A stretch of 64,000 nt of DNA, taken from Styela clava. Its lineage: Eukaryota; Chordata; Ascidiacea; Stolidobranchia; Styelidae. A program made the translations under genes and the position numbers. The stretch lies in the NCBI RefSeq assembly GCF_964204865.1, contig NC_135251.1, forward strand, positions 17,546,001-17,610,000, read 5' to 3'. Below the pieces are notes generated by a model. It ran no database searches. It worked only from the letters and a program-made list of their open reading frames with translations, and was not told the DNA's origin. Below, one piece after another: positions 445 to 62,892 of the stretch (the stretch's first letter is position 1; each line of letters begins with the position of its first letter).

Positions 445-448
445 GAAG

Positions 449-3424: not shown

Positions 3425-3659
3425 GGAAGGATGCTGACTGGCTAAAGGAACAATCTAAAAAAAAAAGTTAAGAAAAAAATCTATCTCATGACGAAATGGC
3501 GGAGACTACTATTTGTTCTACATGTAGTGTTATAAAAAAGTAATATCGTTCAAATTTATTTGTACAAAATTCATAAATGTAAATTATATAATTTTTTTTT
3601 TGTATCAAGAAAATCTAGCTCCCAGACTGCAAATGTGTTGATGATCTGGTATTTCACTC

Positions 3660-3714
3660 AGAGTCTGTAGTTCGTAATTAACGAACGTATACGTACGAAA
3701 CGTATACAGACTCT
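3660..3714. repeat. Compact palindrome cluster
   Basis: The outer arms agagtctgt (3660) and acagactct (ending 3714) are inverted. Between them lie gttcgtaattaacgaac, itself palindromic, and repeated cgtatac motifs. The segment lies ~240 bp beyond the receptor pseudogene. It may be the remnant of a small element or simply a cruciform-prone sequence. Confidence 0.5.
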
Positions 3715-23129: not shown

Positions 23130-23886
23130 ATGTGTGACCCCAGGCAAAACTGTAATGTAATTCGGAACCCCAGAAGGCATTTGTGTTGAAAATGGCTGCC
23201 CTGGAGTAATGGCACAATTTGCTACATTGCGGCTTTCGTATTTTGCGCACTATCGTTGCATATTACCATTTTGTTTAATTCCTAAACTGCCTGGGTGTTT
23301 TTGTCAAATTTGTGACACCAAAAAACGAATAACGTACACTGATATCTCTGGATTGACCGTTCGATCAACGTTGGAATCAGAATTTATTATCAAAGATATT
23401 TATGTTTTCAAATTTGTATCCTTGTTGGCGACTTTTTGACTATATCCACCGGGACCTCTACCAATTTTATACACGACCTAACACAAGTCAAACGCGTTTT
23501 ATTGAAAAAACTAATGCGTTACGCTTATATTTACGAAATTCAAATTTAACACATGATGAAAATAATACAATACTTAAATGCTCATGCACACGGATACGAA
23601 AGTTAATTGGCACCATTTTTTTCGTACGTTAGCAACATCTGAAGCAGTCTACAAAATTTGAAAACTTATCAAAATAAACAACATATTTTATCTACTGTAC
23701 TGATAACAATTGCTGCAAAACTAAACATTTGAAACGCGATTCAGTAGTGAAAATGAGAAAACTAATCGATTTAGTGTTTGATATTGAGCCAAAAGTTGGC
23801 TTTATCTTTCAGTAAAATTTTGTAAATCCTGTAAAGGCTTTTCTCGGTCGTTTGTAAGCCTATTCAATGTCGAATAGCATGGATTC
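23130..23886 (-). repeat. 3' flank of array gene A0, shared by all array copies
   Basis: Homologous to 30436-31167, 42697-43428 and 54959-55692, and in its inner part also to 28670-29160. It holds the presumed 3' untranslated region of A0; tttatt at 23498-23503 is an aataaa on the - strand, ~385 bases past the stop. Left of ~23790 it differs from the later A copies, which marks the left edge of the near-identical 12.26-kb block. Confidence 0.65.
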
Positions 23887-26477
23887 TTAGAACATGTCGT
23901 GACATTCGCCTCGAATTACTTCCATTCTCATGCATGGGTGATTATTCCATGATAATGGGTACAAACGAATAAGGCGACAAATCAGAGGTTTGGGAAACAT
24001 GTTAATCACTTTAGAATCCTCATCCGTGTTTCCTACAAAGACCTAAAGTAAAAAAACACATCATTTTGCAAAACACGACAAACGTTATTGTTATGATACC
24101 AATATCAAAAAGATTATAAGGGGAATAGAAATTGATAAATAGAAATGAATAATACAAATTTTGTTGTAATTTCCAGTTTCATCCTGCTTGTATACTTGGG
24201 AACCTGCGAATGAATTATTAGTATAGGATAGGATTTACATATTTATTTCTGGGGAGAGGAAAGCCGATACGGTGGCTTAATCATATGAAAAACCGCGGTC
24301 TCTCGTTCGGTTATCAGACCATGTCAGGTACGGGATTGTTAGCCAGTTATTCTTTTCAGATGCATGGAATTGATAGTGGTGAAAGCCGTAACCGACCAGG
24401 GGTTAAGTTAATCACTCTACGACAGAGAGGAGTCCCGCAATCATCTTACACATAGCTATTCTCGCATGGGATTCGAAACTGCGAACCCACGCAAGGTAAT
24501 CAGAGATGCGGTGGCGGGCGTATTTCTATATACCAATGTTTTTTGTTTAGTTGTTTAATTTCTATAGTGGGGTTACGGGCGATCACTGTAATAGCTTGTT
24601 ATACCGTAGTGATTGCGTGTAGCCAGATTGGTTTTTACCAAATAGAAGCAGCAGATTTTTTTGAATACAATAGCCCTTCATCGTATTATTTTGTTTTTCA
24701 TCCCTCGTGTACGATTATATAAAAGAAAATTGTGCGATACATACTTTGTCGACAGAATTATCCGTTATAGTTCTCAGAGTAGAAGTTGAATTCCCACACG
24801 CTACTTTGTATGTTTTTACCCACTGATTGTGATCCCATCCATATTTAATTGGGCGTCCCTGAGTTACTATTCCACCTATAAATCTCGGACGTTGAAAATC
24901 AACCTGAATCCACGGATGATTTGCTGAAAAATAATACTTTATAAATTTATTAGGATTTTTTTGAAAACTGTATACATGTTTTTACGTGTTTAACGCGAAT
25001 ATTTGCCACCGGATGTTGTTGGACTTGTCAAAATTATCGTTTATTTTTATTTATTTTTTTATTTACCTGATTCAGAGGTTATAATCAAAAAGAGATAGAG
25101 AACCGTTGATTGAGTATACAATTTTACATTCAAATAATGGGACATCGTACTCTTACTAATAATTTAAGTTAGAAAGGGCATGCAATGGTACTCATTTAAA
25201 AAACCTGGAGGGCCTAATTGGAAAGTAAAAAAACTGCAAAGATACAATGGATTATCAAGTGGAATTCAACACAGAAATACTTACTATCGTGTGTGGGGCA
25301 CCAAGCACCTATACTAAATCCAGTTGAAGCTGTATAGAAAACAGCATTTTCATCCATTCGTCCATGATGAGCGGCATGTCGGTAATCATAATCAGATGAT
25401 GCAGTAATCGCATGATCTGGAATATCCCTGTTCTTCATTCCCAATCCACAGTATGATACTGCAATGAATATGAAAGGATTTTCCATTTTATAAATAAGTA
25501 CTTCGATTATGTTCTACTGATCATCTGAGTATTTTCACGGAGTATTAGTTTCCATCGAATTGATCAATTGCAAACAACAATCGTCGCTTCGATCGAACTG
25601 TTGTATTCGATAACTGACTATAGTACTGCATATTTTGAAAATGGCGAATATGAAATATTATATATACGAATAATATAATTTATTTGCTTGACCCCTCTAC
25701 AAATAAGCTCACGACCGACTATGGCTTATATAGAATAGACCATAAGTCATTAACTATTTTCTCATTTCAGTTCCTTTCCTGGGTAAAATGAAATGTAAAA
25801 AATATATTGAATTGTAAATATCTTACGTTTTGGAATAATGTCAACGGTTTTCTTCATTTTTTCTAAAGTATAAATGCAAGAAGAAGAGCTCAATTATCTT
25901 TATTTTCCTATACGTATGTTGTATAATTAATGTTTTAATTTATTCAAATAAACTTCGTTGATAAACACTGTTTTATTATCTACTGGACCTGGTCTAGTAA
26001 AAATTCATTGCCAATTAAAAAACTCGTTCGTTTTTCCAAAATGGTATTTATTCTGTAAATATAAGTTCTGGACAAGTAATAAGCTTGGGTTTCACGCGAT
26101 TCCATAGCGAGCCGTCCGAAATAATCTAAAATGTGATTCATGACGTCAACGTGTCTCGTTTCCAGTTGGCTATATTTAGGACGTAGGAAATGAAATTTCT
26201 ATGCAAAAAATTTACCTTCTAACAATCTTATTTTATCTTCCAGGCTTTCCGTTGTCCCCTCTTGGCCTCTGTCACCTTTTACACCAGGCAGACCCCTCCT
26301 ACCCTCTGGCCCTCGCTTTCCAGGCCTTCCCTGGCACTGATCAGCACAGCTATGACTCGATGCAGTTTTGTCAGTCATTAGAGCAGAACAAAACTCGTAT
26401 ACGTTCGGTATGTCACCTAAAACTGCAGGTATGATCACGACACAGCACCATAATACGACAAAAGATTTATGCGGCAT
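23887..26477 (-). CDS. Array gene A0: secreted collagen-like/F5-8 type C (discoidin) protein, 268 aa
   Basis: Five exons on the - strand: 26477-26216, 25862-25827, 25458-25285, 24923-24745, 24042-23887, all with GT/AG borders and consistent phases. A signal peptide (residues 1-21, MPHKSFVVLWCC...) leads to a linker with Cys30, Cys44 and Cys48. Eight Gly-X-Y triplets (50-73, starting GRPGKRGPE) and a short helical neck (75-99, ending TVDIIPK) follow. The F5/8 type C domain spans Cys103-Cys264 and shows IPDHAITASS, GAW, WIQVDFQRPRFIGGIVTQGR, QWVKTYKVACG, VGNTD and CMRMEV. The parts resemble defence collagens, so a secreted trimer or larger oligomer is expected, binding surface glycans or lipids through the domain. 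The ligand is unknown. The spliced start is the ATG at 26477; the longer open frame upstream has no ATG. Confidence 0.85.
24235..24530 (-). mobile_element. tRNA-derived SINE-like element in intron 4 of A0
   Basis: On the - strand a B-box-like gtttcgaatccc lies near 24470, followed by a body with ggtcggttacggctttc and taagccaccgtatcggc. Related sequence sits at the same intron position in the other copies (e.g. 36496-36790, 48757-49050, 29510-29765, 31375-31480). It was therefore present before the array amplified. Confidence 0.6.
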
Positions 26478-27100
26478 ATCTATTTTATTTAATATTAACC
26501 GCAATAAAAAAAAGTATATTGTAGAAAATTTGGGCAAATATTTTCATCTTTGAAAAGCTTCCATATGTCCTGATAAATGTAATTTAAAATTGAAATGAAC
26601 ATATCGTTATACGGTTATACCCTCTGTTCAATATGTCAAACATTGTAGTTAACGGCTTTGTTGTATCTTAACTTCCAAACTATTATTTTGCATCATTCCG
26701 AATTTACAAATACTACTCCATGACTAGATGCCGCTAATGTTTTTTTGACTTTGCCATCTTATATATATATATAAATATTAGGTCATCAGGGAAATAACGT
26801 TATATTTCACATTTTTTTCAAATTGAAATGACAATGGTTTTAATGTGTGAATTGAATGAGCTTCAGTATTTTCTCGTGGGAAACTTACATAGCGCTGATT
26901 TTCCTAACCACATCGTATGATTAGATATTATGTTAAAGGCATTTACCGAGCCACTAATAATCCAATAGGTTGGTGGTGATTGATTTGATATTTTAAATCA
27001 GTGCTTACGCTAATAAATGTAATTTGTTGAAATCCAAGTAAGACTGGTTACAAACACTCATTTAGTTCAATACCCAAGCACCGCTTATTTTGTGTTTCAG

Positions 27101-27196
27101 GGAGGCGAATACTGTGCGTGCGGGAAAGACGATATGTCTGGGCGCATGCTTGACCAAGCTTATTTTTACGAAAAAGTTCACAAGTTTCGTCGCTAA
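27101..27196 (+). other. Conserved 32-codon open segment in the array spacer
   Basis: Reads GGEYCACGKDDMSGR onward to TAA and here directly follows tgtttcag, a good splice acceptor. It recurs at 35474-35569, 39362-39457, 47735-47830, 51623-51718, 58423-58518 and 63918 to the window end, always open, with substitutions (Cys5 to Tyr, Glu-Lys to Ile-Thr or Glu-Thr). In the diverged copies the acceptor AG is shifted by a base, so a last exon is not consistent across copies. The - strand is also open. Function unknown. Confidence 0.35.
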
Positions 27197-28610
27197 TAAT
27201 TATAAGAAACAAACGGGCCGACACGGATGCCTTGACCAATGAACGATCCGTCAACGCAAACTACGATGAACCCGGCATAGGTGATTATATTCGCGGCACT
27301 CCCAGAGAATCGTAGTCTTCTCTCATTGGGCAGTGATAGACCTCCCTTGGGACACACAATAAGACAAAAGTGACCCAATGAGTGCGTTGACGCTTAAGTT
27401 GAGAAACATATAAAATTTTTGCAAATTCCAACTAAACGGTTAAGTACTTATAGGCCTTGAATCTAAAATTCAGTGTAAACTAAGTTCGGTTCAAAGTGGT
27501 AGGCCTATTGCAAGGATGGCATTCGATGGAGAAATTTCTAACAATCAGTCGATCGCAAGATATTAAGAAAATGTTAATCGATCTCGGCGATCCGCTGCGC
27601 ATATCCATATATTGTAAACTGTAGTAGTTTTTAGGATAAAAGCTTTGGAATCGTGTGGTAATTGTCACAGCTCAAAAAAGCAACAGAAAGTCATAGCTAT
27701 TTAAAGATGAGAATCACTCAAAAAAATTCAGAAACCCGAAAATCTGCATGCGTGCTTTTTCCGTTCGGCATTCTTTTTTTCGATAAATATTACTATCCAA
27801 ATAAAAGGTTATGAATATTTCTTTGTTTAAACCAGAAAACTGTAAAGAACAGTATAATATTCCTGAGTTCACCTTGACACCCATGAATTTGTTGCGACGC
27901 TGCAGGTGGCTACGAGACGCACAACAAAGTAGGGACCGCAGTGATCTTTACCGGGTGAGGCACAGCAGGATTTTGAGCCTGGTGCGAAGTTCGCAAGGAC
28001 ATTCTCATTGTAATATAAATTCATTTTTTTTGAAGCATTGATCAACTGCAGAGGCATTGATATAATGAACCCAATGAAAATTTTACTTTACAGTCCAGAT
28101 TTATAAAAGAATCATTGTCACAATTCATTCTTGGGCTCTCTTGATAACGTTTACCCATCGATAAGTATACGAGCATTTAAACTGTTGTCCGAATTTTCAA
28201 CCAGTTACTTCTAGCTTCAATTAAAACGAAACAAATAAATCGACTGTGAGCCGCTGCGGAGCTTTGTGTTGCAAAACCTTTTTTAGATGCCTCGTTTGCA
28301 GTCCTGTATTGAAAACGACACAGTAGCAAAATTCTCCCTGGAGTTATATGATTTGACATCTGCATGTTTTTATGTGAGATGTGTACCTTTTTTACGCATA
28401 ATGCGTGCCCAGCACTGCATCTTATTACGGAAATATAAGTTATTAATTTATATTCCACCCATTTCAATTTTTGTCGGCACATTATTTGATAGTTTTTCCT
28501 CATGCGAAATGTTTTTAGGGGGTGCCTTTTTTTTCTAAAGGCATAGTGATTGCTCGACATTACGCAAATATATGTTATTATTTTCTTTTCCACTAATTTC
28601 AGTTTTTGCC

Positions 28611-28663
28611 GGTCCGCAAAGACATTTTATTTTACCGGTCCGCCAGGGTAGAAAGGTTGGGAA
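28611..28663. mobile_element. hAT-like terminal fragment
   Basis: Ends in ggttgggaaccactg, preceded by a doubled accggtccg motif, typical of hAT MITE termini. The opposite end and target duplication were not found. Copies at 40872-40924, 53133-53185 and 59945-60007. Confidence 0.5.
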
Positions 28664-29162
28664 CCACTGTTCTAGAGACATATCGGTGGATTGACCGCTC
28701 AACCAATCTCAATGTTGGAATCAGAAGTTATTATCAAAGATTATTATGCTTTTCATTTATTTTTTCCCTTTTATGTATTTTGTTGGCGGCTTTTTGATTA
28801 TCTCTACTTTGGATCTCTATCAATTTCATACACGATCTAACACAAGTTGAACGAGTTTTATTGAAAATCATTAATGCGTAATGCCTACTTATGAAATTTA
28901 TAAGTGTTATGAAGAACAACAACAAGAAGCAACATCTGAAGCAGTCTACAAAATTTGAAAACTTTGAAAAAAAGAAACAACATATTTTATGATTGCTGAT
29001 AAAACTGAAAATTTGAAACGCGGTTCAATAGTGAAAAGAAAAACAACTAGTCGATTTAGTGTTTGATAATGAGCCAAAAGTTAGCTCAATATTTCAGTAA
29101 AATTCTGAAAAGGCGTTCCTAGGTCGGTTGTAAGCCTATTCAAAGTCGAATAGCATGGATTC

Positions 29163-30051
29163 TTAGAACAAGTCGTGACATTCGCCTCGAATTACTTCCA
29201 TTCTCATGCATTGGTGATATTTCCATGATAATGGGTACAAACAAACAAAGCGACAAATCAGAGGTTTGGGAAACATGTTAATCACTTTAGAATTCTCATC
29301 CGTGTTTCCTGAAAAGACCTATAGTAAAACATAAATAAAAATATTATTTTACAAAATACGACAAACATTATTGTTATACTTTCGATATAAAAAAGCACAA
29401 AAGAAATAGATGAATAGGAAAATAACTGAAAAGTTTATTGTAATTTCCAGATTAATCTTGCTTATATACTTGGAACCTTACGAAGGAAATATTAAGATAG
29501 GATTTGCATATTTAACCCGGGGAGAGGTAAACTGATAAGACGGCTTAATCATATGTCGAACCCCGGCCTCGAGTACGGCTACCAGTCCGCGTCGGGAATG
29601 AAATTAGTTGGCCAGTTATTTGTTTCCGGTTTATAGACTTGTTAGTGGAGAAAGCCGTAACCGACCGGCGCTTACGTGAACCACCCTATACGGCAGCGAA
29701 AAGTTTAGCAATTTTCTCGCACATTTGATACGAATATGCGAACCCACGAATTAGTAACTAATATAGGTAATAATGAATAGCTAATATATTTATATATATA
29801 ATAGTTCTTCATCGTATTACTTTTTTTATCCCTAGTGTGCGTTTATATACAAGAATATTGTACGATACATACTTTGTCAATAGCATTATCCGTTATAGTT
29901 CTCAGAGTAGAAGTTGAATTCCCACACGCTATTTTGCATGTTTTTACCCACTGATTGAAGTCCCATACGTATTTAATTGGGCGTCCCTGTGTTACTATTC
30001 CACCTATAAATCTCGGGCGTTGAAAATCAACCTGAATCCACTGATCATTTG
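29163..30051 (-). pseudogene. C1: orphan exons 4 and 5 of the discoidin family (possible alternative 3' cassette)
   Basis: Two exons, 30051-29873 and 29318-29163, with exactly the lengths (179 and 156), phases and splice sites of exons 4-5 of the complete genes, and open to the normal stop. They encode the second half of an F5/8 domain with its own loop residues (IKYVWDFNQW, SWKYHQC) and two unusual Cys (positions 196 and 243 in A0 numbering). Exons 1-3 are deleted; the break lies just before where the exon 3 donor would be (about 30388). It lies 1.1 kb downstream of B1 on the same strand, so B1 exon 3 could splice to it in frame. Either a truncated pseudogene or an alternative-exon pair. Confidence 0.75.
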
Positions 30052-30435
30052 CTGATAAATATTAATTCGCAAATTCAGTATGATTTTCCTTTTTTTGAAA
30101 CTGTATCAAATTTTTACGTGTTTAACGCAAAATAGTTTCCTCCGGATATTATTGAAGTTGTTATAGTAATCGCTGGCTTTTATAAAATATTTACCTGATT
30201 TGATGGTTATACTCAGAAAAAGATAGATAATCTGTTGGTTCATTACAATTTTTACATGCAAATAATGATACGTCGTACTCCTATTAAAAAATATAGTGCA
30301 TGGAAGGGGCATGGCAAAGGTACTCGCTATATATATATGGAGGGCCTCGTTTAAAAAATAAAACAAAAATGTTGAGATACATCGATTGGAAGTGATCGTT
30401 TTGCAAATTGTTGGACTGAGAGTCATTACTTGAGG

Positions 30436-31167
30436 AATTATAGGGACCCCAGGAGGCATTTGTGTTAAAAATGGCTGCCCTGGAGTAATGACACAATTCT
30501 CTACATTGCAGCTTTCGTATTTTGCGCACTATCGTTGCATATTACCATTTTATTTAATTCCTAAACTGCCTGGGTGTTTTTGTCAAATTTGTGACACCGA
30601 AAAAACGAATAACATACACTGATATCTCTGGATTGACCGTTCGATCAACGTTGGAATCAGAATTTATTATCAAAGATATTTATGTTTTCAAATTTGTATC
30701 CTTGTTGGCGACTTTTTGACTATATCCACCGGGACCTCTACCAATTTTATACACGACCTAACACAAGTTAAACGAGTTTTATTAAAAAAACTAATGCGTT
30801 ACGCTTATATTTACGAAATTCAAGTTTTAACACATGATGAAAATAGTACAATACTTAAATGCTCATGCACACGAATACGGAAGTTAATTGGCACCATTTT
30901 TTTCGTACGTTAGCAACATCTGAAGCAGTCTACAAAATTTGAAAACTTATCAAAATAAACAACATATTTTATCTACTGTACTGATAACAATTGCTGCAAA
31001 ACTAAACATTTGAAACGCGATTCAGTAGTGAAAATGAGAAAACTAATCGATTTAGTGTTTGATATTGAGCCAAAAGTTGGCTTAATCTTTCAGTAAAATT
31101 GTGTAAATCCTGTGAAGGCTTTTCTAGATCGTCTGTAAGCCTATTCGAAGTCGAATAGCATAGATTC
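30436..31167 (-). repeat. 3' flank of B1, between B1 and the C1 cassette
   Basis: Homologous to 23150-23886. It contains no exon. Its left end joins directly to a fragment of intron-1-type sequence (cgttttgcaaattgttgg, 30398), the scar of the deletion that removed exons 1-3 of C1. Confidence 0.6.
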
Positions 31168-33331
31168 TTAGAACATGTCGTGACATTCGCCTCGAATTAC
31201 TTCCATTCTCATGCATATGCCAATATTCCAGGACATTGGATATAAACGAACAAAACGACAAGACAGAGGTTTGGGGAACATGTTAATCACTTTAGAATCC
31301 TCATCCGTGTTTCCTACAAAAACCTAAAGGAAAAACAACATCATTTTACAAAAGAGACGAGAAATTCAGTAATCCCCTCGCACATAATTATCTCACGTGG
31401 GATTCGTACCCACGCAGATAATCAGAGGTGCGGTGGCGAACGTACTCGTAAAGCATAGCACGTTGCGCCACAAATCTAAATCGTAAGAAAATTTCAAAAG
31501 CAACTAATTTCAATACGAATGTTTGCTGTTCAGTTATTTAATTTCCATAGCGGTGTTACGGGCACCATTGAAATGGCATGGTCTGTCGCTGTCAATGTGT
31601 GTAGCTAGATTGGTTTTTACCAGTGAAGTAGTATATTTATTCAAATATAATACCCCTTTTTCGTATTGCTGTTTGTTTTTCATCCTTTGTCTACAATCAT
31701 ATAAAAGAAAATTATACGATACATACTTTGTCGATCTCATTATCCGTTATAGTTCTCAGAGTAGAAGTTGAATTCCCACACGCTACTTTGTATGTTTTTA
31801 CCCGCTGATTGTAGTTCCATCTGTATTTAATTGGGCGGCCCTGAGTTACTATTCCACCTATAAATCTCGGACGTTGAAAATCAATCTGAATCCACTCACC
31901 ATTTGCTGATAAATATTAATTCGCAAATTTAGTATGAGTTTTATATTTTTTAGAAACTGTTAAAATATTTTTACGTTTAATCGTTTACTTTTCAAAATGT
32001 CTACCTGATTGGAAGATTAGAAAAAGGTGAAGAATCGACTGTTAATTCATTACAATTTTACATGGGAATAATAGTACATCGTGCTCCTTAGAAGTGGCAT
32101 GCTATGGGGCTCGTTTAAAAAATATAGAGGGCTTCGTTTGAAATATAAAACGAAATGTTAGGATCCACTTGATGTTAAGATATATCAAGTGAAAGTGAAC
32201 ACAAAAATACCTACTGTTTTGTCCGGAGCACCAGGCACCTACACTAAATCCAGATGAAGCTGTATGGAAAACAGCATTTTCATTCATTCGTCCATGATGA
32301 GCGGCATGTCGGTAATCAGAAACAGATGATGCAGTAATCACATGATCTGGAATATCCCTGCTCTTCATTCCCATTCCACAGTAGGATACTGCAATGGATA
32401 TAAAAGAAATTTTCTATTTATAAATAAGTGCTTCGATTATATTCTACTGATCATCTGATTATTTTTATGGTATGGATATAGAACAAATTTTATTTACCTG
32501 ATTATTTAATTTCGTAGGCCAATAGTCATTATTTTTCTATTTCAGTACCTATCCAGAGTAAAATGAAATGTAAAAAAATACATTGAATTTTAAATTACTT
32601 ACGTTTTGGAATAATGTCAACGGTTTTCTTCATTTTTTCTGAAGTAAAAATCAAGAAGATGCGCTCAGATTATCCTTAATTTCCTTTTTGTATTTTGTAG
32701 AATTAAACAGTTTTAATTTATTCAAATAAATTCTAATAAAATTCCTTGTGTCTCACTGTTTTATTATCCACTGGACACGGCCCAGAAAAAATTAATTGCC
32801 GTTTCAGGAACTTGTTTTACGAATTGTCGGACCGAAAGTCACTGCTCGATGAATTATATCAAAACAATTCATTTTTCATAAAATGTATTCATTCTGTGCA
32901 ATATAAGTTCTGAAAATGTAATATGCTTGGGTTTCACGCAATTCCATATCAAACCCGTCCAAAATAATTCAAAATGTAATGTCCAAAATGTAAATGTAAT
33001 GTCTCAGTTCCAGTTGGCTATATTTAGGGCGTAAAAAATGAATGTTAAATGCATAACAAAAAAGCTTACCTTCTAACAATCTTATTTTCTCCTCCAAGCG
33101 TTCCGTTGTCCCCTCTTCGCCTCTGTCACCTTTTACACCAGGCAGACCCCTCCTACCCTCTGGCCCCCGCTTTCCGGGCCTTCCCTGGCACTGAGCAGCA
33201 CAGTTATGACTCGATGCAGTTTTGTCAGTCATTAGAGCAGAACAAAACTCGTATACGTTCGGTATGTCACTTAAAACTGCAGGTATGATTACGACACAGC
33301 ACCATAATACGACGAAAGATTTATGCGGCAT
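31168..33331 (-). CDS. Array gene B1: secreted collagen-like/F5-8 type C protein, 268 aa
   Basis: Exons 33331-33070, 32638-32603, 32388-32215, 31905-31727 and 31323-31168; lengths equal those of A0. Signal peptide, Cys-rich linker (SSHNCAAQC), eight Gly-X-Y triplets with GDRGEEG in place of GDRGQEG, neck (RLEEKIRLLE), then the F5/8 domain. It differs from A0 mainly in loops: ASSVSDY for ASSDYDY, CSGQNTNGEW for CPTHDTNHPW, IKYRWNYNQR for IKYGWDHNQW, and SWNIGIC for SWNNHPC. Trp192 is Arg here, an unusual change next to a conserved strand. The C1 cassette follows downstream. A likely secreted recognition protein, sister to the A type. Confidence 0.85.
31400..31475 (-). mobile_element. tRNA-like head of a SINE in intron 4 of B1
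   Basis: On the - strand gtggcgcaacgtgct resembles an A box and gggtacgaatcccac a B box, about 45 bases apart, followed by a tail of the family seen at 24235-24530. Copies at about 43661-43736 and 55920-55998. It is not a functional tRNA: no clean cloverleaf can be folded by eye. Confidence 0.6.
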
Positions 33332-33359
33332 ATCTATTTTATTCAATATTAATTGCAAT

Positions 33360-36146: not shown

Positions 36147-38738
36147 TTAGAACATGTCGTGACATTCGCCTCGAATTACTTCCATTCTCATGCATGGGTG
36201 ATTATTCCATGATAATGGGTACAAACGAATAAGGCGACAAATCAGAGGTTTGGGAAACATGTTAATCACTTTAGAATCCTCATCCGTGTTTCCTACAAAG
36301 ACCTAAAGTAAAAAAACACATTATTTTGCAAAACACGACAAACGTTATTGTTATGATATCAATATCAAAAAGATTATAATGGGAATAGAAATTGATAAAT
36401 AGAAATGAATAATACAAATTTTGTTGTAATTTCCAGTTTCATCCTGCTTGTATACTTGGGACCCTGCGAATGAATTATTAGTATAGGATAGGATTTACAT
36501 ATTTATTTCTGGGGAGAGGAAAGCCGATACGGTGGCTTAATCATATGAAAAACCGCGGTCTCTCGTTCAGTTATCAGACCATGTCAGGTACGGGATTGTT
36601 AGCCAGAAATTTGTTTCAGATGCATGGAATTGATAGTGGTGAAAGCCGTAACCGACCAGGGGTTAAGTTAATCACTCTACGACAGAGAGGAGTCCCGCAA
36701 TCATCTTACACATAGCTATTCTCGCATGGGATTCGAAACTGCGAACCCACGCAAGGTAATCAGAGATGCGGTGGCGGGCGTATTTCTATATACCAATGTT
36801 TTTTGTTTAGTTGTTTAATTTCTATAGTGGGGTTACGGGCGATCACTGTGATAGCTTGTTATACCGTAGTGATTGCGTGTAGCCAGATTGGTTTTTACCA
36901 AATAGAAGCAGCAGATTTTTTTGAATACAATAGCCCTTCATCGTATTATTTTGTTTTTCATCCCTCGTGTACGATTATATAAAAGAAAATTGTGCGATAC
37001 ATACTTTGTCGACAGAATTATCCGTTATAGTTCTCAGAGTAGAAGTTGAATTCCCACACGCTACTTTGTATGTTTTTACCCACTGATTGTGGTCCCATCC
37101 ATATTTAATTGGGCGTCCCTGAGTTACTATTCCACCTATAAATCTCGGACGTTGAAAATCAACCTGAATCCACGGATGATTTGCTGAAAAATAATACTTT
37201 ATAAATTTATTAGGATTTTTTTGAAAACTGTATACATGTTTTTACGTGTTTAACGCGAAATAATTGCCACCGGATGTTGTTGGACTTGTCAAAATTATCG
37301 TTTATTTTTATTTTATTTTTTATTTACCTGATTCAGAGGTTATAATCAAAAAGAGATAGAGAACCGTTGATTAAGTATACAATTTTACATTCAAATAAGG
37401 GGACATCGTACTCTTACTAATAATTTAAGTTAGAAAGGGCATGCAATGGTACTCATTTAAAAAACCTGGAGGGCCTAATTGGAAAGTAAAAGAACTGCAA
37501 AGATACAATGGATTATCAAGTGGAATTCAACACGGAAATACTTACTATCGTGTGTGGGGCACCAAGCACCTATACTAAATCCAGTTGAAGCTGTATGGAA
37601 AACAGCATTTTCATCCATTCGTTCATGATGAGCGGCATGTCGGTAATCATAATCAGATGATGCAGTAATCGCATGATCTGGAATATCCCTGTTCTTCATT
37701 CCCAATCCACAGTATGATACTGCAATGAATATGAAAGGATTTTCCATTTTATAAATAAGTACTTCGATTATGTTCTACTGATCATCTGAGTATTTTCACG
37801 GAGTATTAGTTTCCATCGAATTGATCAATTGCAAACAACAATCGTCGCTTCGATCGAACTGTTGTATTCGATAACTGACTATAGTACTGCATATTTTGAA
37901 AATGGCGAATATGAAATATTATATATACGAATAATATAATTTATTTGCTTGACCCCTCTACAAATAAGCTCACGACCGACTATGGCTTATATAGAATAGA
38001 CCATAAGTCATTAACTATTTTCTCATTTCAGTTCCTTTCCTGGGTAAAATGAAATGTAAAAAATATATTGAATTGTAAATATCTTACGTTTTGGAATAAT
38101 GTCAACGGTTTTCTTCATTTTTTCTAAAGTATAAATGCAAGAAGAAGAGCTCAATTATCTTTATTTTCCTATACGTATGTTGTATAATTAATGTTTTAAT
38201 TTATTCAAATAAACTTCGTTGATAAACACTGTTTTATTATCTACTGGACCTGGTCTAGTAAAAATTCATTGCCAATTAAAAAACTCGTTCGTTTTTCCAA
38301 AATGGTATTTATTCTGTAAATATAAGTTCTGGACAAGTAATAAGCTTGGGTTTCACGCGATTCCATAGCGAGCCGTCCGAAATAATCTAAAATGTGATTC
38401 ATGACGTCAACGTGTCTCGTTTCCAGTTGGCTATATTTAGGACGTAGGAAATGAAATTTCTATGCAAAAAATTTACCTTCTAACAATCTTATTTTATCTT
38501 CCAGGCTTTCCGTTGTCCCCTCTTGGCCTCTGTCACCTTTTACACCAGGCAGACCCCTCCTACCCTCTGGCCCTCGCTTTCCAGGCCTTCCCTGGCACTG
38601 ATCAGCACAGCTATGACTCGATGCAGTTTTGTCAGTCATTAGAGCAGAACAAAACTCGTATACGTTCGGTATGTCACCTAAAACTGCAGGTATGATCACG
38701 ACACAGCACCATAATACGACAAAAGATTTATGCGGCAT
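36147..38738 (-). CDS. Array gene A2: secreted collagen-like/F5-8 type C protein, 268 aa
   Basis: Exons 38738-38477, 38123-38088, 37719-37546, 37183-37005 and 36302-36147. Near-identical copy of A0, shifted by 12,261 (exons 1-3) or 12,260 bases (exons 4-5). Coding differences seen against A0: His for Tyr141 (AVFHTAS) and Glu for Gly132 (AAHHERM). Gly132 is kept in every other copy and lies in the usual GR motif of F5/8 domains, so A2 may fold less well. Asp188 has a synonymous change. Loops are otherwise A type. Confidence 0.83.
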
Positions 38739-41423: not shown

Positions 41424-42312
41424 TTAGAACAAGTCGTGACATTCGCCTCGAATTACTTCCATTCTCATGCATTGGTGATATTTCCATGATAATGGGTACA
41501 AACAAACAAAGCGACAAATCAGAGGTTTGGGAAACATGTTAATCACTTTAGAATTCTCATCCGTGTTTCCTGAAAAGACCTATAGTAAAACATAAATAAA
41601 AATATTATTTTACAAAATACGACAAACATTATTGTTATACTTTCGATATAAAAAAGCACAAAAGAAATAGATGAATAGGAAAATAACTGAAAAGTTTATT
41701 GTAATTTCCAGATTAATCTTGCTTATATACTTGGAACCTTACGAAGGAAATATTAAGATAGGATTTGCATATTTAACCCGGGGAGAGGTAAACTGATAAG
41801 ACGGCTTAATCATATGTCGAACCCCGGCCTCGAGTACGGCTACCAGTCCGCGTCGGGAATGAAATTAGTTGGCCAGTTATTTGTTTCCGGTTTATAGACT
41901 TGTTAGTGGAGAAAGCCGTAACCGACCGGCGCTTACGTGAACCACCCTATACGGCAGCGAAAAGTTTAGCAATTTTCTCGCACATTTGATACGAATATGC
42001 GAACCCACGAATTAGTAACTAATATAGGTAATAATGAATAGCTAATATATTTATATATATAATAGTTCTTCATCGTATTACTTTTTTTATCCCTAGTGTG
42101 CGTTTATATACAAGAATATTGTACGATACATACTTTGTCAATAGCATTATCCGTTATAGTTCTCAGAGTAGAAGTTGAATTCCCACACGCTATTTTGCAT
42201 GTTTTTACCCACTGATTGAAGTCCCATACGTATTTAATTGGGCGTCCCTGTGTTACTATTCCACCTATAAATCTCGGGCGTTGAAAATCAACCTGAATCC
42301 ACTGATCATTTG
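41424..42312 (-). pseudogene. C2: orphan exons 4 and 5 of the discoidin family
   Basis: Exons 42312-42134 and 41579-41424; same sequence as C1 as far as I can see, open, with intact acceptors and donor. It lies 1.1 kb downstream of B2 on the same strand, the same possible cassette relation as C1 to B1. Confidence 0.75.
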
Positions 42313-43428: not shown

Positions 43429-45592
43429 TTAGAACATGTCGTGACATTCGCCTCGAATTACTTCCATTCTCATGCATATGCCAATATTCCAGGACATTGG
43501 ATATAAACGAACAAAACGACAAGACAGAGGTTTGGGGAACATGTTAATCACTTTAGAATCCTCATCCGTGTTTCCTACAAAAACCTAAAGGAAAAACAAC
43601 ATCATTTTACAAAAGAGACGAGAAATTCAGTAATCCCCTCGCACATAATTATCTCACGTGGGATTCGTACCCACGCAGATAATCAGAGGTGCGGTGGCGA
43701 ACGTACTCGTAAAGCATAGCACGTTGCGCCACAAATCTAAATCGTAAGAAAATTTCAAAAGCAACTAATTTCAATACGAATGTTTGCTGTTCAGTTATTT
43801 AATTTCCATAGCGGTGTTACGGGCACCATTGAAATGGCATGGTCTGTCGCTGTCAATGTGTGTAGCTAGATTGGTTTTTACCAGTGAAGTAGTATATTTA
43901 TTCAAATATAATACCCCTTTTTCGTATTGCTGTTTGTTTTTCATCCTTTGTCTACAATCATATAAAAGAAAATTATACGATACATACTTTGTCGATCTCA
44001 TTATCCGTTATAGTTCTCAGAGTAGAAGTTGAATTCCCACACGCTACTTTGTATGTTTTTACCCGCTGATTGTAGTTCCATCTGTATTTAATTCGGCGTC
44101 CCTGAGTTACTATTCCACCTATAAATCTCGGACGTTGAAAATCAATCTGAATCCACTCACCATTTGCTGATAAATATTAATTCGCAAATTTAGTATGAGT
44201 TTTATATTTTTTAGAAACTGTTAAAATATTTTTACGTTTAATCGTTTACTTTTCAAAATGTCTACCTGATTGGAAGATTAGAAAAAGGTGAAGAATCGAC
44301 TGTTAATTCATTACAATTTTACATGGGAATAATAGTACATCGTGCTCCTTAGAAGTGGCATGCTATGGGGCTCGTTTAAAAAATATAGAGGGCTTCGTTT
44401 GAAATATAAAACGAAATGTTAGGATCCACTTGATGTTAAGATATATCAAGTGAAAGTGAACACAAAAATACCTACTGTTTTGTCCGGAGCACCAGGCACC
44501 TACACTAAATCCAGATGAAGCTGTATGGAAAACAGCATTTTCATTCATTCGTCCATGATGAGCGGCATGTCGGTAATCAGAAACAGATGATGCAGTAATC
44601 ACATGATCTGGAATATCCCTGCTCTTCATTCCCATTCCACAGTAGGATACTGCAATGGATATAAAAGAAATTTTCTATTTATAAATAAGTGCTTCGATTA
44701 TATTCTACTGATCATCTGATTATTTTTATGGTATGGATATAGAACAAATTTTATTTACCTGATTATTTAATTTCGTAGGCCAATAGTCATTATTTTTCTA
44801 TTTCAGTACCTATCCAGAGTAAAATGAAATGTAAAAAAATACATTGAATTTTAAATTACTTACGTTTTGGAATAATGTCAACGGTTTTCTTCATTTTTTC
44901 TGAAGTAAAAATCAAGAAGATGCGCTCAGATTATCCTTAATTTCCTTTTTGTATTTTGTAGAATTAAACAGTTTTAATTTATTCAAATAAATTCTAATAA
45001 AATTCCTTGTGTCTCACTGTTTTATTATCCACTGGACACGGCCCAGAAAAAATTAATTGCCGTTTCAGGAACTTGTTTTACGAATTGTCGGACCGAAAGT
45101 CACTGCTCGATGAATTATATCAAAACAATTCATTTTTCATAAAATGTATTCATTCTGTGCAATATAAGTTCTGAAAATGTAATATGCTTGGGTTTCACGC
45201 AATTCCATATCAAACCCGTCCAAAATAATTCAAAATGTAATGTCCAAAATGTAAATGTAATGTCTCAGTTCCAGTTGGCTATATTTAGGGCGTAAAAAAT
45301 GAATGTTAAATGCATAACAAAAAAGCTTACCTTCTAACAATCTTATTTTCTCCTCCAAGCGTTCCGTTGTCCCCTCTTCGCCTCTGTCACCTTTTACACC
45401 AGGCAGACCCCTCCTACCCTCTGGCCCCCGCTTTCCGGGCCTTCCCTGGCACTGAGCAGCACAGTTATGACTCGATGCAGTTTTGTCAGTCATTAGAGCA
45501 GAACAAAACTCGTATACGTTCGGTATGTCACTTAAAACTGCAGGTATGATTACGACACAGCACCATAATACGACGAAAGATTTATGCGGCAT
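43429..45592 (-). CDS. Array gene B2: secreted collagen-like/F5-8 type C protein, 268 aa
   Basis: Exons 45592-45331, 44899-44864, 44649-44476, 44166-43988 and 43584-43429. Identical layout to B1, shifted by 12,261 bases. Within exon 4 two nearby base changes against B1 make Pro182 into Arg (GRRIKY for GRPIKY), with a synonymous change at Gly180. All loops are otherwise B type. The Arg adds charge at the base of the IKY loop. Confidence 0.84.
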
Positions 45593-48407: not shown

Positions 48408-50999
48408 TTAGAACATGTCGTGACATTCGCCTCGAATTACTTCCATTCTCATGCATGGGTGATTATTCCATGATAATGGGTACAAACGAATAAGGCGACA
48501 AATCAGAGGTTTGGGAAACATGTTAATCACTTTAGAATCCTCATCCGTGTTTCCTACAAAGACCTAAAGTAAAAAAACACATTATTTTGCAAAACACGAC
48601 AAACGTTATTGTTATGATATCAATATCAAAAAGATTATAATGGGAATAGAAATTGATAAATAGAAATGAATAATACAAATTTTGTTGTAATTTCCAGTTT
48701 CATCCTGCTTGTATACTTGGGACCCTGCGAATGAATTATTAGTATAGGATAGGATTTACATATTTATTTCTGGGGAGAGGAAAGCCGATACGGTGGCTTA
48801 ATCATATGAAAAACCGCGGTCTCTCGTTCAGTTATCAGACCATGTCAGGTACGGGATTGTTAGCCAGAAATTTGTTTCAGATGCATGGAATTGATAGTGG
48901 TGAAAGCCGTAACCGACCAGGGGTTAAGTTAATCACTCTACGACAGAGAGGAGTCCCGCAATCATCTTACACATAGCTATTCTCGCATGGGATTCGAAAC
49001 TGCGAACCCACGCAAGGTAATCAGAGATGCGGTGGCGGGCGTATTTCTATATACCAATGTTTTTTGTTTAGTTGTTTAATTTCTATAGTGGGGTTACGGG
49101 CGATCACTGTGATAGCTTGTTATACCGTAGTGATTGCGTGTAGCCAGATTGGTTTTTACCAAATAGAAGCAGCAGATTTTTTTGAATACAATAGCCCTTC
49201 ATCGTATTATTTTGTTTTTCATCCCTCGTGTACGATTATATAAAAGAAAATTGTGCGATACATACTTTGTCGACAGAATTATCCGTTATAGTTCTCAGAG
49301 TAGAAGTTGAATTCCCACACGCTACTTTGTATGTTTTTACCCACTGATTGTGGTCCCATCCATATTTAATTGGGCGTCCCTGAGTTACTATTCCACCTAT
49401 AAATCTCGGACGTTGAAAATCAACCTGAATCCACGGATGATTTGCTGAAAAATAATACTTTATAAATTTATTAGGATTTTTTTGAAAACTGTATACATGT
49501 TTTTACGTGTTTAACGCGAAATAATTGCCACCGGATGTTGTTGGACTTGTCAAAATTATCGTTTATTTTTATTTTATTTTTTATTTACCTGATTCAGAGG
49601 TTATAATCAAAAAGAGATAGAGAACCGTTGATTAAGTATACAATTTTACATTCAAATAAGGGGACATCGTACTCTTACTAATAATTTAAGTTAGAAAGGG
49701 CATGCAATGGTACTCATTTAAAAAACCTGGAGGGCCTAATTGGAAAGTAAAAGAACTGCAAAGATACAATGGATTATCAAGTGGAATTCAACACGGAAAT
49801 ACTTACTATCGTGTGTGGGGCACCAAGCACCTATACTAAATCCAGTTGAAGCTGTATGGAAAACAGCATTTTCATCCATTCGTCCATGATGAGCGGCATG
49901 TCGGTAATCATAATCAGATGATGCAGTAATCGCATGATCTGGAATATCCCTGTTCTTCATTCCCAATCCACAGTATGATACTGCAATGAATATGAAAGGA
50001 TTTTCCATTTTATAAATAAGTACTTCGATTATGTTCTACTGATCATCTGAGTATTTTCACGGAGTATTAGTTTCCATCGAATTGATCAATTGCAAACAAC
50101 AATCGTCGCTTCGATCGAACTGTTGTATTCGATAACTGACTATAGTACTGCATATTTTGAAAATGGCGAATATGAAATATTATATATACGAATAATATAA
50201 TTTATTTGCTTGACCCCTCTACAAATAAGCTCACGACCGACTATGGCTTATATAGAATAGACCATAAGTCATTAACTATTTTCTCATTTCAGTTCCTTTC
50301 CTGGGTAAAATGAAATGTAAAAAATATATTGAATTGTAAATATCTTACGTTTTGGAATAATGTCAACGGTTTTCTTCATTTTTTCTAAAGTATAAATGCA
50401 AGAAGAAGAGCTCAATTATCTTTATTTTCCTATACGTATGTTGTATAATTAATGTTTTAATTTATTCAAATAAACTTCGTTGATAAACACTGTTTTATTA
50501 TCTACTGGACCTGGTCTAGTAAAAATTCATTGCCAATTAAAAAACTCGTTCGTTTTTCCAAAATGGTATTTATTCTGTAAATATAAGTTCTGGACAAGTA
50601 ATAAGCTTGGGTTTCACGCGATTCCATAGCGAGCCGTCCGAAATAATCTAAAATGTGATTCATGACGTCAACGTGTCTCGTTTCCAGTTGGCTATATTTA
50701 GGACGTAGGAAATGAAATTTCTATGCAAAAAATTTACCTTCTAACAATCTTATTTTATCTTCCAGGCTTTCCGTTGTCCCCTCTTGGCCTCTGTCACCTT
50801 TTACACCAGGCAGACCCCTCCTACCCTCTGGCCCTCGCTTTCCAGGCCTTCCCTGGCACTGATCAGCACAGCTATGACTCGATGCAGTTTTGTCAGTCAT
50901 TAGAGCAGAACAAAACTCGTATACGTTCGGTATGTCACCTAAAACTGCAGGTATGATCACGACACAGCACCATAATACGACAAAAGATTTATGCGGCAT
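48408..50999 (-). CDS. Array gene A3: secreted collagen-like/F5-8 type C protein, 268 aa
   Basis: Exons 50999-50738, 50384-50349, 49980-49807, 49444-49266 and 48563-48408. Differs from A2 by regaining Gly132 (AAHHGRM) and shares His141 with it. All splice sites are intact. Of the three A copies this one has the most canonical residues. Confidence 0.84.
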
Positions 51000-55692: not shown

Positions 55693-57866
55693 TTAGAACA
55701 TGTCGTGACATTCGCCTCGAATTACTTCCATTCTCATGCATATGCCAATATTCCAGGACATTGGATATAAACGAACAAAACGACAAGACAGAGGTTTGGG
55801 GAACATGGTAATCACTTTAGAATCCTCATCCGTGTTTCCTACAAAAACCTGAAGTAAAAAAAACATCATTTTACAAAAGAGACGAGAAATTCAGTAATCC
55901 CCTCGCACATAATTATCTCACGTGGGATTCGTACCCACGCAGATAATCAGAGGTGCGGTGGCGAACGTACTCGTAAAGCTTAGCACGTTGCGCCACAACG
56001 CCGAGAACAAATCTAAATCCTAAGAAAATTTCAAAAGCAACTAATTTCAATACGAATGTTTTCTGTTCAGTTATTTAATTTCCATAATGGTGTTACGGGC
56101 ACCATTGAAATGGCATGGTCTGTCGCTGTCAATGTGTGTAGCTAGATTGGTTTTTACCAGTGAAGTAGAAAATTTATTCAAATATAATACCCCTTTTTCG
56201 TATTGCCGTTTGTTTTTCATCTTTTGTCTACAATCATATAAAAGAAAATTATACGATACATACTTTGTCGATCTCATTATCCGTTATAGTTCTCAGAGTA
56301 GAAGTTGAATTCCCACACGCTACTTTGTATGTTTTTACCCACTGATTGAAGTCCCATCCGTATTTAATTGGGCGTCCCTGAGTTACTATTCCACCTATAA
56401 ATCTCGGACGTTGAAAATCAATCTGAATCCACTCACCATTTTCTGATAAATATTAATTCGCAAATTTAGTATGAGTTTTCTATTTTTTAGAAACTGTTAA
56501 AATATTTTTACGTTTAATCGTTTACTTTTCAAAATGTCTACCTGATTGGAAGGTTAGAAAAAGGTGAAGAATCGGCTGTTAATTCATTACAATTTTACAT
56601 GGAAATAATAGTACATCGTGCTCCTTAGAAGTGGCATGCTATGGGGCTCGCTTAAAAACTATGGAGGGCTTCGTTTGAAATATAAAACAAAATGTTAGGA
56701 TCCACTTGATGTTAAGATATATCAAGTGGAAGTGAACACAAAAATACCTACTGTTTTGTCCGGAGCACCAGGCACCTACACTAAATCCATTTGAAGCTGT
56801 ATGGAAAACAGCATTTTCATCCATTCGTCCATGATGAGCGGCATGTTGGTAATTAAAATCAGATGATGCAGTAATCACATGATCTGGAATATCCCTGCTC
56901 TTCATTCCCATTCCACAGTAGGATACTGCAATGGATAAAAAAGAAATTTTCTATTTATAAATAAGTGCTTCGATTATATTCTACTGATCATCTGATTATT
57001 TTTATGGTATGGATATAGAACAAATTTTATTTACCTGATTATTTAATTTTGTAGTCCAATAGTCATTATTTTTCTATTTCAGTACCTATCCAGAGTAAAA
57101 TGAAATGTAAAAAAATACATTGAATTTTAAATTACTTACGTTTTGGAATAATGTCAACGGTTTTCTTCATTTTTTCTGAGGTAAAAATGCAAGAAGATGC
57201 GCTCAGATTATCCTTAATTTCCTTTTCGTATTTTGTAGAATTAAACAGTTTTAATTTATTCAAATAAATTCTAATAAAATTCTTTGTGTCTCACTGTTTT
57301 ATTATCCACTGGACACGGCCCAGAAAAAATTAATTGCCGTTTCAGGGACTTGTTTTGCGAATTGTCGGACCTAAAGTCACTGCTCGATGAATTATATCAA
57401 AACAATTCATTTTTCATAAAATGTATTTATTCTGTGCAATATAAGTTCTGAAAAAGTGATATGCCTGGGTTTCACGCAATTCCATACCAAACCCGTCCAA
57501 AATAATTCAAAATGTAATGTCCAAAATGTAAATGTAATGTCTCAGTTCCAGTTGGCTATATTTAGGGCGTAAAAAATGAATGTTAAATGCATAACAAAAA
57601 AGCTTACCTTCTAACAATCTTATTTTCTCCTCCAAGCGTTCCGTTGTCCCCTCTTCGCCTCTGTCACCTTTTACACCAAGCAGACCCCTCCTACCCTCTG
57701 GCCCCCGCTTTCCGGGCCTTCCCTGGCACTGAGCAGGACAGTTATGACTCGATGCAGTTTTGTCAGTAATTAGAGCAGAACAAAACTCGTATACGTTCGG
57801 TATGTCACCTAAAACTGCAGGTATGATCACGACACACCATAATACGACAAAAGATTTATGCGGCAT
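55693..57866 (-). CDS. Array gene B3: diverged B-type collagen-like/F5-8 type C protein, 267 aa
   Basis: Exons 57866-57608, 57175-57140, 56925-56752, 56442-56264 and 55848-55693. All five are open with GT/AG borders. One codon is missing in the signal peptide (single Cys after Trp10). Other changes: CPAQC linker, GLLGVKG in the collagen-like run (still Gly-X-Y), and ASSDFNYQ, CSGQNKNGEW and IKYGWDFNQW loops. It is a mosaic: spikes 1 and 3 look like D or C, the rest like B1. Its upstream flank is of the A type and lacks the hAT element. Confidence 0.83.
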
Positions 57867-60557: not shown

Positions 60558-62892
60558 TTAGAACATGTCGTGACATTCGCCTCGAATTACTTCCATTCTC
60601 ATGCATGAGTGATTATTCCATGATAATGGGTACAAACAAACAAAGCGACAAATCAGAGGTTTGGGAAACATGTTAATCACTTTAGAATTCTCATCCGTGT
60701 TTCCTAAAAAGACCTATAGTAAAAAATAAAAAAAATATCATTTTACAAAATACGACAAACATTATTGTTATAATTTCGATATAAAAAAAGCACAAAAGAA
60801 ATAGATGAATAGGAAAATAACTGCAAATTTTATTGTAATTTCCAGATTCATCTTGCTTATATACTTGGAACCTTACGAAGGAAATATTAAGATAGGATTT
60901 GCATATTTAACCCGGGGAGAGGTAAACTGATAAGACGGCTTAATCATATGTCGAACCCCGGCCTCGAGTACGGCTACCAGTCCGCGCCGGGAATGAAATT
61001 AGTTGGCCAGTTATTTGTTTCCGGTTTATAGACTTGTTAGTGGAGAAAGCCGTAACCGACCGGCGCTTACGTGAACCACCCTATACGGCAGCGAAAAGTT
61101 TAGCAATTTTCTCGCACATTTGATACGAATATGCGAACCCACGAATTAGTAACTAATATAGGTAATAATGAATAGCTAATATATTTATATATATAATAGT
61201 TCTTCATCGTATTACTTTTTTTATCCCTAGTGTGCGTTTATATACAAGAATATTGTACGATACATACTTTGTCAATAGCATTATCCGTTATAGTTCTCAG
61301 AGTAGAAGTTGAATTCCCACACGCTACTTTGTATGTTTTTACCCACTGATTGAAGTCCCATCCGTATTTAATTGGGCGTCCCTGTGTTACTATTCCACCT
61401 ATAAATCTCGGACGTTGAAAATCAACCTGAATCCACTCACGATTTGCTGATAAATAACAATTCGCAAATTTAGTATAAGTTTTTTATTTTTTTATGAAAC
61501 TGTATAATATTTTTACGTGTTTAATGCAAAATAGTTTCCTCTGGATATTAGTGAAGTTGTTATAGTAATCGTTTACTTTTATAACATATTTACCAGATTT
61601 GATGGTTATACTCAGAAAACGGTAAGTATTCTGTTGGTTCATTACATGTTTAAATGCAAATAATGATACGTCGTACTCCTATTAAAATTAAAGTGTATGG
61701 AAGAGCCATGGCAATGGTACTCGTTATAAAATATGATGGGCCTCGTTTGAAAAATAAAACGAAATGTTGAGATCCAATTGATGTTAAGATACATCGAGTG
61801 GATTTGAACACAAAAATACCTACTGTTTTCTCCGGAGCACCAGGCACCTACACTAAATCCATTTGAAGCTGTATGGAAAACAGCATTTTCATCCATTCGT
61901 CCAGGATGAGCGGCATGTTGGTAATTAGAATAAGATGATGCAGTAATCGCATGATCTGGAATATCCCTGCTCTTCATTCCCATTTCACAGTAGGCTATAC
62001 TGCAATGGATATGAAACAAATTTTAATTTTATATAAATAAGTACTTCGATTTAATTTAACGGATAATCCAACTTATTTTTTTTTTTTGAAAAATTAATTT
62101 CAGTGAAACTAGTCAACTGGCCAAACAACAATCGCCGATTCAGTCGAACAGTTATATTCGATATCAGAAACGTGTGACTAGTAGCCTATATAGCATATTT
62201 TGTTGAAAATAGCGAATGTGAAAAGATTTATTATTAAAAAGGTTCTTGACCCCTTTCGAAAACGCTCATGACCGACTGTGGCGTATAGAGACCATAGGTA
62301 AATAATTTTTCCATTTCAGTTCCTATTCTGGGTAATATGAAATCTAAAAAATATACTGAATTGTGAATATCTTACGTTTAGGAATAATGTCAACGGTTTT
62401 CTTCATTTTTTCTAAAGTAAAAATGCAATAAAAAGTGGTAAGATTATCTTCATTTTCCTATATATACGTATTTTGTATAATTAAACAGTTTTAAGTTTAT
62501 TCAAATAACTTCAAAACAGTAAAATTAATTGTGTCTCACTGTTTTATTATCCACTGGACCTGAGCTAGTAAAAAATCATTGTCGTAAAGGACTCGTTTTG
62601 CAAATTGTTGGACTGAAATTCACTACTTGAGGAATTATAGCGAACAATTCATTTTTCATAAATGATATTTATTCTGTGCAATATAAGTTCTGAACAAGTA
62701 ATATGCCTGGGTTTCATGCGATTCCATAGCGAGCCCGTCCAAAGTAATCTAGAATATAATTCATGGCGTCAACGTGTCTCGGTTTCAGTTGGATAAAGCA
62801 GAACAAAACTCGTATACGTTCGGTATGTTACTTAAAACTGCAGGTATGATCACGACACAGCACCATAATATAACAAAAGTTTTATGCGACAT
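60558..62892 (-). pseudogene. D: discoidin-family gene that has lost its collagen-like region
   Basis: Exons 2-5 are present and open (62411-62376, about 61994-61824, 61446-61268, 60713-60558). Exon 3 carries two extra bases at its start; a shifted acceptor (tatag) would restore the frame with one codon fewer. Exon 1 begins normally at 62892 (MSHKTFVILWCC, signal peptide, NVYEFCSAL) but homology ends at about 62795. The collagen-like triplets, the neck and the splice donor are gone, and the frame soon stops. An internal gtatac at about 62825 could act as a donor, giving a collagen-free secreted protein. Loops: ASSYSNYQ, CSGENTNREW, IKYGWDFNQW, SWNNHSC. Confidence 0.75.

Follow-up and report, generated by a model that had tools for sequence, protein, structure and literature searches.

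The window analysed here is a stretch of 64,000 nucleotides of Styela clava contig NC_135251.1 (forward strand, positions 17,546,001 to 17,610,000; G+C 35%), and a tblastn search with the exon peptides of copy A showed that its minus strand carries one gene family in ten complete or partial copies, spread from about 23.9 to 62.9 kb. When complete, a copy consists of four coding exons (exon 1, Fa, Fb and Fc) with GT/AG splice sites. Exon 1 encodes a signal peptide, cysteines 30, 44 and 48 (A3 numbering), nine Gly-X-Y triplets and a short neck, and it is conserved (A3-B1 dN 0.03, dS 0.11); Fa, Fb and Fc together encode a single F5/8 domain of 169 codons. The Pfam family F5_F8_type_C (PF00754), which takes its name from coagulation factor V/VIII, matches copy A1 with 87 bits against a cut-off of 28.2, over profile positions 2-127 of 127, and the Pfam Collagen match reaches 20.2 bits, under its cut-off of 27.2. 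F5/8 domains have a terminal disulfide between cysteines near both domain ends; C4 and C165 are present at these places in A3, B1, B3 and D, and would form the predicted disulfide. All six cysteines of the domain and W150 are identical across these four copies. The exons of A1 and the other copies are as follows.

26216..26477, minus strand: exon 1 of A1, coding part (signal peptide, Cys-rich segment, 9 Gly-X-Y triplets, neck), from tblastn and splice sites
25285..25458, minus strand: exon Fa of A1, first third of the F5/8 domain, with loop 1 and the first half of loop 2
24745..24923, minus strand: exon Fb of A1, second half of loop 2, and loop 3
23887..24042, minus strand: exon Fc of A1, loop 4, C-terminal Cys and stop codon
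29166..30052, minus strand: copy C1, Fb and Fc only
31171..33331, minus strand: copy B1, four exons
36150..38738, minus strand: copy A2, four exons
41427-42313, minus strand: copy C2, Fb and Fc only
43432..45592, minus strand: copy B2, four exons, introns identical to those of B1
48411..50999, minus strand: copy A3, four exons
53688-54575, minus strand: copy C3, Fb and Fc only, frameshifted
55696..57866, minus strand: copy B3, four exons; introns ~2.5% and loops ~10% different from B1
60561..62892, minus strand: copy D, damaged

The preliminary description compared A, B, B3, C and D; of these, only A and B/B3 are four-exon genes, C consisting of Fb and Fc only and D being damaged. In copy D the 3' half of exon 1, which encodes the collagen part, is gone together with the splice donor, and the Fa acceptor region has 2 extra nucleotides relative to B; in its present state D is probably not functional. 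The reading frames of C1 and C2 are open. Each B gene is followed, 1.1 kb downstream, by the Fb-Fc pair of C, which has the correct splice phase. AATAAA motifs are found ~390-620 bases past the B stop codon. The sequence upstream of exon 1 is present a second time, without exon 1 itself, ~1.6 kb before B (34927-35584 and 47188-47845).

The order A, C, B occurs three times with a step of 12,261 bp (23576-57957). From 25362 to 35825, unit 1 departs from unit 2 at only 3 sites; unit 3 is equally close until ~43184 (unit-2 coordinates), after which its B part, B3, diverges; A2 and A3, and likewise C2 and C3, are also nearly identical, whereas B3 is distinct and the left edge of A1 divergent. The 12,261-bp repeat is either a recent duplication or in part an assembly product. 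Since A, C and B1/B2 are almost unchanged between units, the number of distinct sequences is only about five (A, B1/B2, B3, C and D). Compared with A2/A3 over 23490-26877, A1 is identical in intron 1 and in the 400 bases upstream, differs by 1.4-1.9% in introns 2-3 and by 19.5% in the 400 bases downstream, which points to a recombination or conversion edge within the gene.

Inspection by eye also found at least two LDL-A-repeat, relaxin-receptor-like receptor genes on the plus strand at 344-20016, with last exons near 3014-3424 and 19675-20016 and with weak Pfam matches, under cut-off. A damaged piece of collagen exon (230-443, minus strand) adjoins and partly overlaps plus-strand LDL-A repeat sequence. 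A lineage-specific expansion of LDL-A/relaxin-receptor-like receptors has been described in Ciona (PMC2396169); together with the G+C of 35%, the receptor genes would by themselves suggest a tunicate. The window has no Rfam match at the gathering threshold and no match in a tRNA scan, and there are no inverted repeats of at least 80 bases in 22-64 kb.

Four variable clusters and the neuropilin-1 ligand site

Four clusters of change had been picked out by eye in the preliminary description, and the clusters are real, all the quoted motifs being present in the copies: DYDYR, VSDYR, DFNYQ and YSNYQ in cluster 1; PTHDTNHP, SGQNTNGE, SGQNKNGE and SGENTNRE in cluster 2; GWDHNQW, RWNYNQR and VWDFNQW in cluster 3, with GWDFNQW in addition in B3 and D; and NNHP, NIGI, KYHQ and NNHS in cluster 4. 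The span then given, 24745-25458, covers exons Fa and Fb, whereas cluster 4 lies outside it, at 23946-23935 in exon Fc. Distances from one cluster to the next agree with ours, although the residue numbers were 12 too high for a gene model starting MPHKS, in which DYDYR is 110-114.

The best solved relatives of the domain are neuropilin-1 chains (for example 2orx and 2qqi; E 7e-31 for a b1-b2 chain, with query positions 5-161 aligned), and coagulation factor V/VIII C domains and lactadherin are among the PDB relatives by sequence. Clusters 1 to 4 fall on neuropilin-1 residues 296-300, 317-324, 348-354 and 412-415, these numbers being counted along the aligned chain, where a gap in L3 may move them by one. 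For the analyses below we delimited four loops on A1, numbering codons from the start of the F5/8 domain (F-codons).

25376..25393, minus strand: loop 1, F-codons 23-28, DYDYRH, aligning with neuropilin-1 296-301
25285..25300, minus strand: loop 2, Fa part, F-codons 54-58 and the first base of 59
24913..24923, minus strand: loop 2, Fb part, rest of codon 59 to 62; both parts together align with neuropilin-1 316-324
24820..24849, minus strand: loop 3, F-codons 84-93, IKYGWDHNQW, aligning with neuropilin-1 346-354
23935..23946, minus strand: loop 4, F-codons 151-154, NNHP, after conserved W150, the counterpart of neuropilin-1 Trp411

The ligand site of neuropilin-1 b1 has been located among six loops on the top of the barrel (PMC5947257), and loops L1-L3 are described as forming it, with YSTNW as L1 and 320-322 within L2 (PMC8945599); Trp411 is reported in the pocket (PMC9368954), and a Thr413 contact in docking to 2QQI (PMC9415016). 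In the same domain here, the clusters align on L1-L3 and beside Trp411. By homology, all four would surround one site, consistent with the common face that the preliminary description had proposed. The putative pocket floor is invariant in A3, B1, B3 and D (H28, C54, I84, W88, Q92, W150), and the replacement excess lies on the loop shoulders more than on this floor. The net charge of the loops is -2 in A, +2 in B1 and -1 in B3 and D. The four non-terminal cysteines (F-codons 54, 155, 101 and 140; in A1 in exons Fa, Fc, Fb and Fc, respectively) are constant in the same four copies; as loop 2 has C54 at its base and loop 4 is directly followed by C155, a disulfide may tie these two loops together.

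Among A3, B1, B3 and D (four of the ten copies), amino acid differences occur at 39 of 169 codons, comprising 18 of the 29 loop codons and 21 of the 140 others, so that the earlier statement of a nearly constant framework was too strong. Replacements are enriched in the loops (hypergeometric p = 6e-7; when four segments of the loop lengths were placed at random 20,000 times, 18 was never reached), with the reservation that the loop borders were set when the clusters were already known, which flatters these p values. Synonymous-variable codons show no such enrichment, with 1 of 12 in the loops. Fisher's test of replacement versus synonymous codons in loops and elsewhere gave p = 0.020 for A3, B1, B3 and D, 0.013 for A3, B1 and B3, and 0.059 for five sequences over Fb and Fc only. 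When the loops are ignored, variable codons do not cluster significantly along the sequence (18 close pairs, where 15.6 would be expected; p = 0.20), and we rejected simple linear clustering as proof. Between closely related copies most replacements fall in the loops: 9 of 12 for B1-B3 (p = 0.0005) and 6 of 10 for D-C1 (p = 0.0017).

Rates of change in the loops

Introns and flanks provide a neutral yardstick that is independent of synonymous sites. Between B1 and B3 the loops differ at 9 of 87 sites, all of them replacements, against 35 of 1393 in the introns (p = 7e-4) and 5 of 420 in the framework; between D and C1 they differ at 8 of 54 sites, again all replacements, against 20 of 895 in intron and flank (p = 8e-5). 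In the two youngest pairs, then, loops have changed about 4 (B1-B3) and 7 (D-C1) times faster than introns and flanks, and this is the strongest evidence that we have. The older pairs behave differently, with loop divergence like that of the introns in A3-B1 (22/87 versus 279/1227, p = 0.60) and not above it in B1-D (15/87 versus 207/917, p = 0.28). Framework synonymous divergence for A3-B1 (10/92) is below that same intron figure (p = 0.006), so that dS may be too low a yardstick. Saturation or gene conversion of exons could account for the pattern in the older pairs.

Fixed-site codon models were run in our own implementation (F3x4). The main maximum-likelihood run used A3, B1, B3 and D, and others used A3, B1 and B3 only or added C1; A1, A2, B2, C2 and C3 were left out as near-duplicates, C3 being frameshifted too. 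Codons 1-2 of copy D, uncertain through the extra nucleotides in its acceptor region, were scored as framework changes. Loop and framework w were 4.95 and 0.52 for A3, B1 and B3, 4.39 and 0.63 when D was added, 5.15 and 0.68 with D and C1, and 4.96 and 0.63 for A3, B1, B3 and D on exon-wise trees. In the same order, loop w = 1 was rejected with 2dlnL of 18.0, 20.5, 28.8 and 21.4 (chi-square p = 2e-5, 6e-6, 8e-8 and 4e-6), and none of 200 simulations under loop w = 1 reached 20.5 in the four-sequence run. The preliminary description had asked for an excess of nonsynonymous change at these sites, and the loop dN/dS above 1 in these models supplies it; the opposite outcome, which would have spoken against selection, was not seen.

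With a free loop rate, w > 1 was still preferred (p = 0.014, 0.007 and 0.0015 for three, four and five sequences, and 0.007 on exon-wise trees), the four-sequence run giving a 2dlnL of 7.3, with 4 of 200 null simulations as extreme. The comparison of M1a with M2a, in which no sites are named beforehand, gave a 2dlnL of 17.0, reached by none of 57 simulations, and a class of 22% of sites with w 5.9, which includes the non-loop sites 46, 115, 139 and 148 (P > 0.9). We do not rely on M8a-M8 (0 of 5 null simulations as extreme), nor on a run with the loop borders of the preliminary description itself (w 5.8 versus 0.61, 2dlnL 28.0), which is circular. A strict set, drawn from the neuropilin papers and nothing else, has 19 codons, 8 of which vary; it gave w = 2.6 (p = 0.018), and no support once the loops had a free rate (p = 0.38). 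Loop dN exceeded loop dS in all ten pairs among A3, B1, B3, D and C1, over only 8-16 synonymous sites. The selection reading rests on about five distinct sequences, of which D and C are damaged.

Probable selection on the putative ligand-site loops and its rivals

We consider it probable that the array encodes tandem, secreted and probably trimeric recognition proteins, collectin/ficolin-like and headed by an F5/8 domain, in which selection on the ligand-site loops has led to different ligands for each copy. The build would be that of a Cys-rich start, a short collagen stalk, a helical neck and a globular head of the neuropilin/factor VIII type. Stalk and neck would trimerise the protein; after duplication, selection would favour replacements on the putative ligand-site loops, with the stalk and most of the barrel kept meanwhile, and the copies would come to bind different ligands, which may be microbial, gamete or self surface molecules. 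Selection for different targets had been suggested in the preliminary description. The data show the gene structure, replacements concentrated on loops homologous to those of the neuropilin ligand site, a loop dN above dS and, in the two young pairs, loops that have changed more than introns and flanks; the trimer, the ligand site in the neuropilin position, the differing ligands and the biological role are what we infer.

Short gene-conversion tracts could instead have brought in loop variants as blocks from paralogues inside or outside the window, without point-by-point selection, and we regard this as unlikely. For exon Fa the tree (A,B1),(B3,D) is favoured by 4.2 lnL, in conflict with the tree (A,D),(B1,B3) that is favoured by 45 lnL for Fc and by 9 for Fb, and with introns 1-2, which join B1 with B3 (2-3% versus ~22% to D; the B1-D alignment of intron 3 is poor, at 50%). 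B3 codons 25, 27 and 46 are identical to those of D. This conflict reflects a short conversion tract, which breaks the assumption of a single tree, or else homoplasy, with the same residues selected more than once; the lower divergence of A3-B1 at exon synonymous sites than in introns also fits conversion. Exon-wise trees, however, leave the loop result as it was. Seven replacements, five of them in loops, are private to B1/B2, with no shared private synonymous change, and no donor for these or for the changes private to C was found among the copies in the window, so that exchange within the window fails to explain them. Moreover, imported blocks should bring synonymous changes along, whereas none is seen in the loops of the young pairs, albeit over few synonymous sites. 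A viral_contigs scan for relatives outside the window returned 2 pattern matches, neither related.

A combined reading, to which we give a low probability, takes the array as a diversifying F5/8-headed repertoire shaped by duplication, loop selection and exchange together, in which C could provide B with another possible ending: loop 1 would stay as it is in B, whereas loops 3 and 4 and the latter half of loop 2 would be exchanged.

It is very unlikely, in our view, that assembly created part of the repeated units and that the differences between B1 and B3, or between C and D, are partly alleles or consensus errors. The near-identity of units 1 and 2 would suit the former, and the intron divergence of 2.5% between B1 and B3 would suit alleles of a variable marine animal; against this, the introns of A, B and D clearly differ (~18-30% where alignable), the exons have open frames or definite lesions, and allelic status would lower the copy number only, not the loop excess. 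Relaxed constraint only, with tolerant loops drifting at the neutral rate, is compatible with the older pairs A3-B1 and B1-D and is highly improbable as a whole: drift should not exceed the neutral rate, so it fails to explain the faster loops of the young pairs, and loop w = 1 is rejected; as a sole explanation we rejected it. Barely plausible is a local mutation hotspot in the loop-coding stretches, a high local rate being hard to exclude with only ~15 synonymous loop sites, some free-rate null simulations reaching the observed value and the strict set failing the free-rate test, whereas synonymous-variable codons are not enriched in the loops and the four stretches are spread over three exons.

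Relation to known recognition proteins

The proposed collectin/ficolin-like recognition proteins differ from neuropilin-1 in their gene model, which is of secreted type with a collagen stalk and has neither CUB nor membrane part. Of the eight neuropilin-1 pocket residues listed in one account (Y297, W301, T316, D320, S346, T349, Y353 and W411; PMC9368954), only W411 is kept in all copies compared; the aligned residues here are, in order, Y/S/F, H, C, D/N, I, W, Q and W, with D in A and N in B1, B3 and D at the position of D320. A neuropilin-type C-end arginine pocket was not found in this alignment.

The F-type lectins, such as oyster sperm bindin and eel fucolectins, have a jelly-roll with pocket-ringing loops at the end far from the termini. 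A review (PMC5712786) reports that the loops vary between eel isoforms and that eight pocket sites of oyster bindin repeats are under positive selection; its main text does not contain the word "collagen". A pattern search of A3, B1, B3 and D (four of the ten copies) found no F-type lectin motif HX24RXDX4(R/K).

Collectins and ficolins are secreted proteins with N-terminal cysteines, a collagen stalk, a neck and a recognition head. The family described here has a collagen stalk with N-terminal cysteines, although with only 9 triplets, and Pfam, at E values up to 1, matched neither a C-type lectin nor a fibrinogen head; the family may act in the manner of a collectin or ficolin, while by its head domain it is neither. 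Both collectins and ficolins are present in ascidians (PMC5465252). s/v-Themis and HrVC70, which a review names as known tunicate self-recognition proteins, are other proteins (PMC7344649), and the term "discoidin" is absent from the text of that review. A literature search of titles and abstract openings returned no tandem family combining collagen with F5/8, which is weak evidence of absence as "F5/8" is not literally searchable. On that evidence, a collagen-stalked F5/8 family with a signature of loop selection may be new here, whereas for oyster bindin positive selection on the pockets of duplicated F-type lectin domains has been reported (PMC5712786).

If our reading is true, the neuropilin/factor VIII fold, mounted on a collagen stalk, is put to use as a diversifying recognition head by an animal that lacks antibodies, and selection marks the ligand face of this head, in parallel with the positive selection on the sugar pocket of oyster sperm bindins (PMC5712786). 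The young pairs B1-B3 and C-D, with most of their replacements on the putative ligand face, make this reading directly testable.
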